In this document: one piece after another, positions 42,863 to 56,601 of the stretch
Layout: every line of letters begins with the position of its first letter
Position numbering within the stretch: the stretch's first letter is position 1
Assembly (NCBI RefSeq): GCF_029633915.1
Contig: NZ_CP091092.1
Location: forward strand, 620,001-684,000
DNA length: 64,000 bases
Direction of reading: 5' to 3'
Origin: Methanomicrobium antiquum
Lineage (GTDB): Archaea; Halobacteriota; Methanomicrobia; Methanomicrobiales; Methanomicrobiaceae
Notes under the pieces: model-generated
What the model saw: the letters and a program-made list of their open reading frames with translations, nothing else
Told to the model about the DNA's origin: nothing
Database searches by the model: none
Program-made: the position numbers and the translations under genes

Positions 42863-43022
42863 TGAATATATGCCCCCCCAGGTATTAATTAATGAAGTTT
42901 TTAGCTGAATATTTTTTTACTTAATATCCATGATATGACACAACCTTTGCATATCACATATGAAGTTTTGTGTGCATGTCATAAAATAGTATTCATTGGT
43001 CTTTCTAAAACCCTTATAAAAG

Positions 43023-43087
43023 AATGAAAACATCTGTCATAAATGAATGGTGTTAAATGAATAGCGATAAATGAATCTAATGTCTGG
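43023..43087 (+). repeat. Operator-like 65-bp repeat, copy 1
   Basis: This sequence is about 95% identical to 45347-45411. It contains AAATGAAT three times at 43041, 43055 and 43069, exactly 14 bp apart. Regularly spaced direct repeats suggest a binding site for a repressor. It lies about 200 bp upstream of mntA. Confidence 0.75.
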
Positions 43088-43223
43088 TCAAATTGGTAAT
43101 GGATTGACTGGTCATACATCAATCGTCAGAAAAGATACCTTTATTGACATTAATGAGAGATATATCTCTTATCTACAGGCAGATAATTTTTAATCCTTTA
43201 GACTCTATAAACTCATAAATTTT

Positions 43224-45211: not shown

Positions 45212-45485
45212 TTTTTAACCTCTAAAATAACTGTGCGATATTTAATATTCTACATAAATATTACAGTTTTCATTACTGTTTTGTAACCTGACTGAGTGTA
45301 TCCAGTTGCCTTTATTTTCTGTCTGGACGGACTCCTATTCTAAGAAAATGAAAACATCTGTCATAAATGAATGGTGTCAAATGAATAGCGATAAATGAAT
45401 TTAATCTCTGGCCGGATTGACTGGTTTATTGCTCTTTTAAAAAATCAGCATAAATATATTATATCATGCATGCATACACGAATGC
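45212..45485. promoter_or_regulatory. Region between hicB and vapB with operator-like repeat
   Basis: This divergent gap of 274 bp holds the second copy of the 65-bp repeat (45347-45411) and a TATA-like AAATATATTATA near 45451-45463, just before vapB. No gene seen. Confidence 0.55.
45347..45411 (+). repeat. Operator-like 65-bp repeat, copy 2
   Basis: This copy has AAATGAAT at 45365, 45379 and 45393, again 14 bp apart. The differences from copy 1 are few substitutions with no gaps. It ends 74 bp before the vapB start and just upstream of its TATA-like sequence, the place of an operator. Confidence 0.75.
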
Positions 45486-52591: not shown

Positions 52592-54298
52592 ATGAATATG
52601 GCTAAGATAAGCTACGCGAGTGGTTTGTCGGATGTACCCCTGATTGGTGAGACCATCGGGGAGATGCTTGAAAATATCGTAAGCAGATATCCTGACAACG
52701 ATGCTCTGGTCGCGGTTGACCAGAACATAAGGTGGACGTACAGCGAATTCCTGCAGAAAGTGGATGAGCTTGCACGAAGTCTTATGTCACTTGGAGTCAA
52801 CAAGGGCGACCGCGTGGGTATCTGGGCAATGAACTATGCCGAATGGGTTGTAGTTCAGTTTGCAACCGCTAAATGCGGTGCGATAATGGTAAACATTAAT
52901 CCGGCATACAGGACATTTGAGCTTGAATATGCACTAAAACAGGCCGAAGTTCACACACTGATTCTTCAGGGCAGATTCAAAAAATCTGACTATGTAGGAA
53001 TGCTCTATGAGGCATGTCCTGAAGTAATTGAGTCACGCCCGGGCAGAATATCAACAGAGAAATTTCCGTTTTTAAGAAACGTTGTCTTTATGGGAAACAT
53101 TCCCTACAACGGAATGTTCACGTGGGATGAGTTTTTATCAAAGGGTATAAATGTCAGCCAGGATGAGTTAAAGGAGCGGGAATCAACTCTTAATTTTGAT
53201 GATCCAATAAACATTCAGTATACGTCCGGAACAACCGGTTATCCAAAAGGTGTTGTATTAACGCACCACAGCGTTTTAAATAACGGTTATACAATCGGCT
53301 CCGGAATGGGCTTTACTGAAAAGGACAAACTTTGTATTCCTGTTCCTTTTTATCACTGTTTCGGGATGGTTTTGTCAAATCTTGCATGTGTAACTCATGG
53401 AACAACTATGGTCATTCCTTCACCTGCTTTTGATGCCGAAGCTGTTTTAAAGACTGTTGATAGCGAAAAATGCACAGCTCTTCATGGCGTTCCCACAATG
53501 TTTATTGCCGAGCTAAAACATCCGAATTTCAATAAATACAGATATGATACTCTAAGAACCGGAATTATGGCAGGGTCGCCATGCCCGGTGGAATACATGA
53601 AGCAGGTCAATGAGAAGATGAACATGAAAGACATTGTAATTGTATACGGGCAGACCGAAACATCCCCTGGTGTTACAATGACAACAACAGGCGATCCGCT
53701 TGATAGAAGGGTTACAACTGTCGGCAGGACATTTCCTCATGTTGAATTAAAGATAATAGACCCGGTGACACAAAAAATTGTTCCGCGTGGAGAAAGAGGA
53801 GAAATCTGTGCACGCGGCTATGTTGTGATGAAATGCTACTACAACAATCCAAGTGCAACACGCCAGACCATTGATTCAAACGGCTGGAATCATACAGGTG
53901 ATCTTGGAATAATGGATGATGAAGGCTACGTAAAGATTGTCGGAAGGCTTAAGGAAATGGTCATCCGCGGCGGCGAAAACATCTATCCGCGTGAAATTGA
54001 AGAATTTTTCCACACAAACAGAAAGATAGAGGATGCATACGTAATCGGCGTTCCTGATGAGAAGTACGGAGAAGAGCTGATGGTCTGGGTTAAGCTTCGC
54101 GATAAAGAGACCCTGACTGAAAAAGAACTTAAGGAATTCTGTGATGGAAAGATTGCAAAATATAAGATTCCAAGGTATGTTAAGTTCGTTGATGAATTCC
54201 CAATGACAGTCTCCGGAAAAATCAGAAAACTTGAGATGCGTGATATTTCAATAAAAGAGCTTGGTCTTGAAAAAGAAGCAACAATCGAGACAGCCTGA
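52592..54298 (+). CDS. Acyl-CoA synthetase (AMP-forming, FadD-like)
   Basis: This 568-residue adenylate-forming enzyme has the P-loop-like YTSGTTGYPKGVVLTH (about residues 210-225), YGQTETSPGVTMTT (about 352), the A8 region GDLGIMDDEGYVKIVGRLKE and the catalytic lysine in MTVSGKIRKLE near the end. It activates a fatty or aromatic acid with ATP and CoA. Acyl-CoA ligases of this type occur in Methanomicrobiales, where their substrate is unclear. The start may be the ATG at 52592 or at 52598. It converges with mtaD across a repeat array. Confidence 0.92.
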   Translation: MNMAKISYASGLSDVPLIGETIGEMLENIVSRYPDNDALVAVDQNIRWTYSEFLQKVDELARSLMSLGVNKGDRVGIWAMNYAEWVVVQFATAKCGAIMVNINPAYRTFELEYALKQAEVHTLILQGRFKKSDYVGMLYEACPEVIESRPGRISTEKFPFLRNVVFMGNIPYNGMFTWDEFLSKGINVSQDELKERESTLNFDDPINIQYTSGTTGYPKGVVLTHHSVLNNGYTIGSGMGFTEKDKLCIPVPFYHCFGMVLSNLACVTHGTTMVIPSPAFDAEAVLKTVDSEKCTALHGVPTMFIAELKHPNFNKYRYDTLRTGIMAGSPCPVEYMKQVNEKMNMKDIVIVYGQTETSPGVTMTTTGDPLDRRVTTVGRTFPHVELKIIDPVTQKIVPRGERGEICARGYVVMKCYYNNPSATRQTIDSNGWNHTGDLGIMDDEGYVKIVGRLKEMVIRGGENIYPREIEEFFHTNRKIEDAYVIGVPDEKYGEELMVWVKLRDKETLTEKELKEFCDGKIAKYKIPRYVKFVDEFPMTVSGKIRKLEMRDISIKELGLEKEATIETA

Positions 54299-54329
54299 AA
54301 ATTCTATATTTCAATTAAAACATTTTTTC

Positions 54330-54762
54330 AATTGTATAAATCTTTAAATTGTATTATTTTTTAGTTGTATAAACTTTTGAATTTTAGAATTTTTTAATTG
54401 TATTTTCTTTTAAATTATAATCTTTTTTTAATTGTATATACTTTTGAATTGCAAGATTTTTTTAATTGTATATACTTTTGAATTGCAAGATTTTTTTAAT
54501 TGTATTTACTTTTGAATTATAAATTTTTTTTAATTGTATTTGCTTTTGAATTATAAATTTTTTTTAATTGTATGTCCTTTTAAATTGCAATACTTTTTCA
54601 ATTGTATAAACTTTTGAATTGCAAGATTTTTTTCAATTGTATTTGCTTTTGAATTAAAATTTTTTTAATTGTATGTCATTTTAAATTGCAATACTTTTTC
54701 AATTGTATAAACTTTTGAATTGCAACAATTTTTTAATTATAAAAACTTTTGAATTGTAATGA
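54330..54762 (+). repeat. Degenerate tandem array of 34-bp AT-rich units
   Basis: Thirteen units begin with AATTGTA-like words at 54330, 54363, 54396, 54430, 54464, 54498, 54532, 54566, 54600, 54635, 54667, 54701 and 54735. Nearly all spacings are 33-35 bp. Each unit consists of two 17-bp halves, TTTTTAATTGTATATAC-like and TTTTGAATTGCAAGATT-like. On the plus strand every unit has a T-run of 5-8. The array lies between convergent genes, so it may act as a strong terminator. Confidence 0.85.
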
Positions 54763-54927
54763 TAAAGGCAATTTAAATCCGGCATTTAATTTAGAAAATC
54801 CGGATTCCGGGTTTATTTAATTTACAATTATTAAACTAACATTTAATGGCAAAGTTATCATTTTACAAAAGCCTGATCTTGTATAAAAAGAAAAGTTGAT
54901 ATCTGTAATTTAAAATATGTAATTTTT

Positions 54928-56256
54928 CTACAATGAATCATTATACCTTTTTACAAGACTGTATGCAGAATCAGATGCTTTTTTGCAGATTTCCTCTTCA
55001 TTTGGAATAAATCCGTCATGCATTAAAACACGACCGTTGCAGATTACTGTATCAACAGCGTTTGAGTTTGCCGAATACACAATATTTGATTCCCAGTTAA
55101 ATAGCGGAGTCATACAGGGAGTTTTTGTGTTTATCAGAACAATATCTGCTTCTGCTCCTGTTTTTAGTTCTCCCTCTCCAAAGCCAAGAGCTTTTTTGCC
55201 TGCCGATGTTGCCATTTTAAGTGTTTCATGAGCCGGAAGAACAGTATCTGAATTCCAGAAGAACTTCTGAAGAAGTGCCGCGGTTTTCATCTCTTCTAAA
55301 ATGTCTAAGTTGTTGTTTGACGAACATCCGTCTGTTCCAAGAGTTACATTAACCCCGCTGTCAATGAGTTTTTGGTATGGCATTGCCCGGTTTACTGCCA
55401 GTTTCATATTAGAAACGGGATTGTGTGCGACAAAAACCCCTATTTTTCCTAAAAGTTCGCATTCAGAGTCATCAAGCCAGCATCCGTGCGCCGCAACTGT
55501 TCTTTTGGATAGACATCCGCATTCGTCAAGAACTTTTGAGGGTCTTTTGTTGTTTTGTTCGATGCAGTCTTTGACCTCCTGTTCGGTCTCGCTTAAGTGG
55601 ATATGTATTCCAATATCGTTTTCTTTCGAATATGCTGAACACCAAAGAAGGCCTTCTTTTGATACAGTATATGGTGCATGAGGTCCGACTGCGGCTTTTA
55701 TACGCGGATTGTTCATGCTTTTTATGTGTTCACACAGTTTTTCTGTTGCTTTTATCTCTGCCTCTCTCTTCTCTTCGTTTCCAAAATCTATGAATCCGTG
55801 GCAGAGGACCGCTTTTATACCTGAATCATAAACTGCACGTGCGGCCTCTTCCATAAAGAAGTACATATCGTTAAAGGCAATTGTTCCACTGCGTATCATC
55901 TCTATTGATGCAAGCATTGTCCCGTTATAGACATCTTCAGCTGAAAGGTGTGCTTCCAGGGGCCAGATTTTTTCAGAAAGCCACTCCTGAAGGTGCATAT
56001 CATCAGCATATCCGCGAAGAAGAGTCATTGCAGAATGCGTATGTGTGTTTGAAAACCCTGGTGATGCAACAGTTGATTCTCCGTCAATAATAAATTCAGG
56101 CTCTCCGTATTCTCCTGAGTATTTATCAGAAATCTCTTCAATTATTCCGGTATCGCTTACAAAAATGTCCTTTATTTTTCCGTTTACAAGCGTTTTTTTG
56201 ATGAGTATGGAATCTGTTTCATTAAAAATATCAATATCATTCATATTATCAGACAT
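54928..56256 (-). CDS. mtaD: 5'-methylthioadenosine / S-adenosylhomocysteine / 5'-deoxyadenosine deaminase
   Basis: This 442-residue amidohydrolase has the metal-binding SNTHTHSAMTLLRGYADD (HxH, about residue 70), VGPHAPYTVS, GIHIHLSETEQE and TLGTDGCSSNNNLD (the aspartate ligand). The family, MtaD/DadD, deaminates methylthioadenosine, S-adenosylhomocysteine or 5'-deoxyadenosine, by-products of SAM chemistry. Next to it, at 56602-57279, lies a phosphorylase that would use the resulting inosine derivative. The two genes point the same way, separated by 345 bp. Confidence 0.9.
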   Translation of the reverse strand: MSDNMNDIDIFNETDSILIKKTLVNGKIKDIFVSDTGIIEEISDKYSGEYGEPEFIIDGESTVASPGFSNTHTHSAMTLLRGYADDMHLQEWLSEKIWPLEAHLSAEDVYNGTMLASIEMIRSGTIAFNDMYFFMEEAARAVYDSGIKAVLCHGFIDFGNEEKREAEIKATEKLCEHIKSMNNPRIKAAVGPHAPYTVSKEGLLWCSAYSKENDIGIHIHLSETEQEVKDCIEQNNKRPSKVLDECGCLSKRTVAAHGCWLDDSECELLGKIGVFVAHNPVSNMKLAVNRAMPYQKLIDSGVNVTLGTDGCSSNNNLDILEEMKTAALLQKFFWNSDTVLPAHETLKMATSAGKKALGFGEGELKTGAEADIVLINTKTPCMTPLFNWESNIVYSANSNAVDTVICNGRVLMHDGFIPNEEEICKKASDSAYSLVKRYNDSL

Positions 56257-56601
56257 ATGTTTTTAAATCTCCTTTAAACCTTATTTTGATTTGCAATGAA
56301 AGTCAAAATTCCTGATAAACTTATCATTCACTTTTTGTATGATGAAAAAAGCTTATCATGTGCGTTTGACATGAAATTTCTCTGTAACTTACATGAAACT
56401 GTTGCAGGGAAAAAAATTATAATGGACGTTTGTTATGATAATTTAAAGTTTCATAAAGCCTTAATGAGTCTTTTTTTATGTGATGGCAATTTTAATCATG
56501 CAGTTTTTTTCATTATAACTTTTGAATTTTTTCATGATAACTTCTGAATAAACCATCTTTTTCATGAACTGAAAATTTCAAAAAATTTCATTTGTAAAAA
56601 T
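56257..56601. other. Intergenic region with repeat copy G
   Basis: This 345-bp gap has no convincing gene. A plus-strand ORF of 83 codons here overlaps the repeat and has no ribosome-binding site, so it is left out. The repeat copy G at 56372-56431 and the mtaD promoter are the contents. Confidence 0.6.
56372..56431 (+). repeat. Intergenic repeat, copy G
   Basis: This copy has GAAATTTCTCTGTAACTTA, then CATGAAACTGTTGCAGGGA and the end AATGGACGTTTG. The first and second thirds match other copies; the 3' hairpin is degraded. Confidence 0.6.

Follow-up and report, generated by a model that had tools for sequence, protein, structure and literature searches.

We analysed a stretch of 64,000 nucleotides (the window), corresponding to positions 620001-684000 of the Methanomicrobium antiquum genome, which is a single contig of 2.438 Mb. 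The spacer between an acyl-CoA synthetase gene (acs) and an amidohydrolase gene (mtaD) is 629 bp long and holds an AT-rich tandem array. The features of this locus, in window coordinates, are as follows.

52592-54298, + strand: acyl-CoA synthetase gene (acs) with an AMP-binding domain (PF00501), convergent neighbour of the array
54299-54321: left flank, from the acs stop codon to the array, with no above-chance match to relatives' spacers
54322-54759, + strand: AT-rich tandem array, 13.0 copies of 34 bp, defined by TRF, half-unit register and base content
54325-54758, + strand: 26 half-unit cores in 17-bp steps, 24 of which match TTTTNAATTNNA exactly
54527-54729, + strand: duplicated three-unit block (units 10-12 a near-identical copy of units 7-9), from the unit identity matrix and core positions
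54760-54927: right flank, older intergenic DNA with partial matches to the G001 and G006 spacers
54928-56256, - strand: MtaD-like amidohydrolase gene (PF01979), convergent neighbour of the array

The five flanking proteins belong to the Fae/OMPdecase, AMP-binding, amidohydrolase, phosphorylase and QRPTase families. The acyl-CoA synthetase exceeds the cut-off of an NCBIfam fatty acid CoA ligase family, and its nearest named records are from a Methanomicrobiaceae MAG (93% identity) and Methanomicrobium mobile (86% identity). All 25 NCBIfam matches listed for the amidohydrolase are below their cut-offs, and mtaD is therefore used as a family-level name. An earlier note, made from the sequence alone, had placed the array between the 3' ends of these two genes, and the genes indeed converge on it.

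The array is 438 bp long and was reported by TRF at period 34 with 13.0 copies, 80% matches and a score of 454, and again at period 17 with 25.8 copies, in agreement with the 13-copy array of 34-bp units and 17-bp halves described in the earlier note. The bounds given there (54330-54762) capture the array, with edges 8 and 3 bases off those of TRF. Its A+T content is 85%, with T at 0.55 and A at 0.30 on the + strand, and the strand rich in T is also the coding one for the acyl-CoA synthetase gene upstream. Each 34-bp unit consists of two diverged 17-bp halves, giving 26 degenerate halves in total. An alignment anchored on AATT yields 27 cores, one in each of these halves and a further, degenerate one at the left edge. 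The 17-bp recurrence of AATT was likewise confirmed, with 22 of 26 core-to-core steps being exactly 17 bp and the remainder 16, 16, 18 and 15 bp. The majority form of half A is TTTT[TC]AATTGTA, i.e. TTTT[TC]AATTGTAT..., and that of half B is TTTT[GA]AATT[GA][CT]A...; A and B halves alternate. At up to two mismatches, TTTTTTAATTGTATA matches 13 times in the array and 14 times across the whole window, compared with a mean of 1.35 and a maximum of 5 in 100 shuffles. Units 7-9 are nearly identical to units 10-12 (31, 33 and 32 of 34 positions), and units 4 and 5 are identical to each other. No ORF of at least 60 aa overlaps the array, and 34 bp is not divisible by three.

To trace the history of the spacer, acs loci from named genomes were compared. 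An mtaD relative was present at 48 of 80 loci and was convergent with acs every time, at less than 500 bp in 24 of the 48, with many loci cut by contig ends; no mtaD lies within reach of the M. mobile acs locus (L014). At the four nearest loci, the distances between the protein matches are 126 bp (L013), 177 bp (L094, genome G001), 126 bp (L095, G004) and 135 bp (L099, G006). The first three are from congeners and the fourth is from another genus, and none of their spacers contains the array. The spacers of L013 and L095 are the same, and both loci probably come from one species. In another genus, L016 and L102 (G019) have spacers of about 397 bp with unrelated sequence, and the L103 spacer is short. 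The start of the right flank matches the G001 spacer over 20 bp (a match equalled by none of 300 shuffled targets). A second stretch of the right flank matches the G006 spacer (equalled by 1 of 300). Nothing above chance was found between the right flank and the L013 spacer (33 of 300), or between the array with its left flank and the G001, G006 or L013 spacers.

Among 39 relatives, four have matches of 30-52 bp to the array DNA and none has an array-long match, where up to 16 candidates, the best, were scored in each genome. Three successive cores at the array spacing were found in M. antiquum and once in M. mobile, with none in 28 other relatives; outside the array they occur in two places only. 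In the search for the unit elsewhere, proposed in the earlier note, the best other match in M. antiquum was 77% identical over 75 bp of the query (E 1.9e-6; best 40 of 122 candidates scored). Because the congener spacers read lack the array and the right flank keeps ancestral spacer sequence, the array most likely arose in the M. antiquum lineage.

We surveyed 36 stretches of 20 kb from the M. antiquum genome, not picked for hits, with simple longest ORFs as gene calls. A total of 29 intergenic arrays (TRF score ≥80) were found in 112,230 bp of intergenic DNA. In the relatives, the numbers are 2 in 55,817 bp (G001), 0 in 43,646 bp (G006), 1 in 17,680 bp (G007), 1 in 25,859 bp (G011) and 1 in 17,104 bp (G004), the last being a weak count because repeats may drop out of MAG assemblies such as this one, which has 50 contigs. 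The G006 and G007 assemblies are single contigs. Pooled, the five relatives have 5 arrays in 160,106 bp, so that M. antiquum holds 29 of 34 arrays, where a share of 0.41 would be expected (p 1.5e-7). The 29 arrays, with units read by eye, include two CRISPR-like arrays and two copies of a dispersed element, and removal of these four leaves 25 of 30 (p 2.7e-6). One dinucleotide shuffle of the intergenic DNA (16 stretches) gave no arrays. The array units differ by locus and are nearly all unrelated, for example 10 bp x 14.5, 10 x 8.8, 15 x 5.4, 37 x 4.1 and 30 x 4.6. This wealth of unrelated local minisatellites, the main finding, is not visible in the window by itself. The 25 stretches taken from M. 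mobile (500 kb, with 58,516 bp intergenic) hold 20 such arrays. The density per Mb is 40.3 in M. antiquum, 40.0 in M. mobile and 5.0, an eighth, in the congener G001. M. mobile is as rich in minisatellites as M. antiquum despite a GC content of 49%. Two neighbouring minisatellites in M. antiquum (L131 3354-3835, genome positions 323354-323835), 11 bp x 10.8 and 13 bp x 18.9 at 97%, look younger than the acs-mtaD array.

Rich and poor species occur within one genus, which would allow a comparative search for the cause of the abundance; two repair genes were considered. Loss of MutS can be dismissed as the cause, since each of 21 genomes has MutS above the cut-off. In G001, G004, G006 and G007 there is a weak match to a NucS domain that M. 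antiquum and M. mobile lack. The G006 protein behind this match (362 aa, L156 3914-5005) scores 35.8 against a NucS equivalog cut-off of 216, with 26.5 bits for the Pfam domain. Only G001 and G007 hold full-length relatives of it; the array-poor G011 has none, and G004 none at full length. M. mobile has none and M. antiquum has only a weak partial match (27% over 93 residues). The gene is thus carried by neither of the two rich genomes and by three of the five poor ones, too few for a conclusion on the cause.

Taken together, the array is likely a locus-specific, non-coding AT-rich minisatellite that grew by slippage and at most incidentally terminates acs transcripts. The spacer of the convergent genes would at first have held a T-rich stretch of 17 bp, which became duplicated, and the two halves would then have diverged. 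The 34-bp dimer may then have been amplified through replication slippage or unequal exchange, and the three-unit block would later have been copied whole. Such copy turnover is suggested by the units of the one genome found for the species. Similar arrays would form in many spacers of M. antiquum, each from its own local sequence, and would persist neutrally, extra DNA being tolerated between convergent 3' ends. Any cellular role would be slight, the array giving acs transcripts many U-rich stretches for the archaeal termination machinery. The uneven spread of changes over the array columns, described below, counts against neutrality.

The earlier note had also raised a repeated terminator. 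For this reading, aCPSF1 acting at redundant U4 tracts would block acs read-through into antisense mtaD, and the array would have been selected for it. The position between convergent genes fits, and the array has 27 T runs of at least four on the + strand versus 2 on the - strand, in favour of acs termination. All but two of the 27 cores retain T4, and a U4 or longer tract occurs about every 17 nt in the acs transcript. The aCPSF1 of Methanococcus maripaludis requires two U4 tracts in the RNA it binds, which must be at least 18 nt long (PMC8716108), and most neighbouring array halves, lying downstream of acs, supply two U4 tracts within such a length. The acs transcripts could thus well end in the array.

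The orientation of other arrays, however, does not follow transcription. Between tandem genes in M. antiquum, the coding strand carries the T-rich side of 15 arrays and the A-rich side of another 15 (score ≥50), or 3 versus 4 at a score of at least 80. In convergent spacers, 3 arrays are oriented with the nearer gene and 7 against it. The corresponding M. mobile values are 10 versus 26 between tandem genes (2 versus 5 at score ≥80) and 7 versus 5 in convergent spacers. The T-rich coding-strand bias expected of terminator arrays is thus absent from the arrays of both species. The first 100 nt after 279 genes, from crude ORF calls, contain 2.01 T4 versus 2.06 A4 runs, with no excess, and the relatives' acs-mtaD spacers manage with 2 to 7 runs of T4 or longer on the acs strand. 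Two bacterial-type terminator-like sites were predicted in 54000-55200 (0.3 in shuffles), at 54796-54814 and 55015-55034, both outside the array, the former being a separate hairpin to its right. A terminator role would also leave the conserved AATT and A unexplained. Because the arrays show no strand preference, termination is a plausible side effect rather than the array's reason, and we regard a selected terminator array as unlikely.

Changes mapped on the unit tree are unevenly distributed, with 18 of the 34 columns having none (p 0.0002; variance test p 0.011), in a test that assumes equal column mutability and a correct unit tree. The nine fixed positions of TTTTNAATTNNA (TTTT-AATT--A), equal to 18 columns of the 34-bp unit, received 2 of 37 changes; the other 35 fall in the remaining eight of 17 positions, or 16 columns. 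With the 26 halves as units, unevenness is again significant (p 5e-5 and 0.0002). The nine positions were picked post hoc, and a 9-column window scan still gives p 0.001. Such uneven conservation resembles the pattern that a binding site would leave. The earlier suggestion of a protein-binding or chromatin-boundary element is supported to this extent: a DNA-binding protein sitting on TTTTNAATTNNA at 17-bp steps may form a filament, boundary or anchor. The core is strand-exclusive, with 24 exact copies on + and none on -. Among 28 other arrays, 16 had too few changes, and none of the 12 with at least eight changes (8 intergenic, 4 in reading frames) is uneven. These 12 are small, and cut-down samples of the acs-mtaD array were significant (p_zero < 0.05) in only 1 of 9 cases with five units and 9 of 21 with six halves, so the comparison is limited in power.

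Against a binding protein, other sampled spacers show no enrichment of the motif (48 TTTTNAATTNNA copies versus 44.3 in shuffles), paired cores outside the array give 11 matches versus 15 for a reversed-pattern control, the congener spacers read do without the array, and no Rep or partition family occurs among the five neighbouring proteins. Spacings between T runs in spacers are broadly above shuffles, with 103 versus 57 at 17 bp (the highest count), 94 versus 52 at 24 bp and 97 versus 49 at 30 bp; as 24 and 30 bp are raised as much as 17 bp, no genome-wide 17-bp phase is apparent. A protein array on these cores is accordingly quite improbable. There is similarly a small chance that the minisatellite was selected as a binding platform, becoming a 24-site insulator or anchor for a nucleoid or boundary protein of Methanomicrobium. 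The array's own importance hinges on whether the conserved core is a binding site.

Another array, L146, was considered as a sharer of the alternating core and rejected on reading its letters. The words TTTTRAATTG and TTTTTAATTG, of which the array is full, are rarer than expected in other M. antiquum spacers (1 versus 9.4 and 2 versus 5.7 in shuffles, respectively), and G006 spacers show no deficit of TTTTRAATTG (6 versus 2.8). It is possible that a word around AATTG is avoided in M. antiquum spacers.

The array is AT-rich with regular T runs, in favour of the curved-DNA site suggested earlier. In a wedge model, 195, 185 and 110 of 200 shuffles were at least as curved at 100, 200 and 400 bp, respectively. 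The spectral power of A/T runs is 0.1 at 10.5 bp (2.6 in shuffles) and 56.6 at 17 bp. The predicted curvature does not support a curved-DNA element, which is highly improbable. RNA structure is unremarkable on both strands (+ strand z -1.74, with 5 of 100 shuffles as good; - strand z +1.40), and neither of the two Rfam matches in the window at gathering score is on the array. Bacterial-type promoter-like sites in 54000-55200 number 5, versus 7.1 in shuffles, some of them inside the array. A CRISPR array was rejected, the units being head-to-tail without unique spacers.

Two other kinds of repeat were seen in the window. A dispersed repeat of about 150 bp lies upstream of mtaD (56285-56450) and has at least 48 matches in the genome, itself included, at E ≤1e-5 (best 40 of 252 candidates scored). 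The other copies are 77-92% identical, some in tandem pairs; two congeners have one and five weak matches, respectively, and ten other relatives have none. Its fold beats that of all but one of 200 shuffles (z -3.0). One possibility is a non-autonomous mobile element, or a REP-like one, that multiplied in the M. antiquum lineage. The second kind, 43015-43090 and 45341-45411, consists of 93% identical copies of 71-76 bp with degenerate 14-bp units ATAAATGAATAGCG, and these were the only two copies found in the genome. Both lie upstream of ORFs read by eye as a nucleotidyltransferase/HepT-like pair and a VapB-type antitoxin, and may perhaps be a shared operator.

Iteron and partition-site arrays consist of direct repeats of about 17-22 bp. 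The acs-mtaD array is like these in having direct repeats of similar length and unlike them in that its units are degenerate outside a short core, and no neighbouring replication or partition gene is present among the five flanking proteins. Phased A-tract bent DNA, with tracts at 10.5 bp and above-shuffle curvature, is not what the array shows. It shares with aCPSF1 U-tract terminators (PMC8716108) the several U4 or longer tracts soon after the stop codon, but differs in having 27 tracts in a regular array and in belonging to M. antiquum arrays without strand bias.

Also among the closest known systems are archaeal minisatellites, which, according to Subirana and Messeguer (2019, PMC6749651), are short, often AT-rich tandem repeats, scattered, often unrelated between loci and abundant in a few methanogens. 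Archaeal satellites are abundant in Methanosarcina, Methanobrevibacter ruminantium and Methanococcus voltae, and local AT-rich ones are ascribed there to DNA duplication errors. The Methods define a satellite by a decamer occurring at least 4 times within 800 nt and a repeat of 10-260 nt. In the array, the decamer TTTTTTAATTGTAT occurs 7 times in 54390-54675, and the 22 of 26 half-unit steps of 17 bp are above the 60% of identical repeat lengths sought. Among the candidates scored, its unit is not shared with other loci and its origin would be local, a common though not required trait of satellites. The array differs from archaeal minisatellites in its dimeric, rather diverged unit, and our densities come from TRF, not SATFIND, and are not comparable number for number with those in PMC6749651. 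Methanomicrobium is not named in the main text of that paper, and a search of the available papers for Methanomicrobium with tandem repeats found none. The best reading is that the array is a minisatellite like those already described in Methanosarcina and Methanobrevibacter, and that Methanomicrobium is an addition to the patchy list of minisatellite-rich methanogens.
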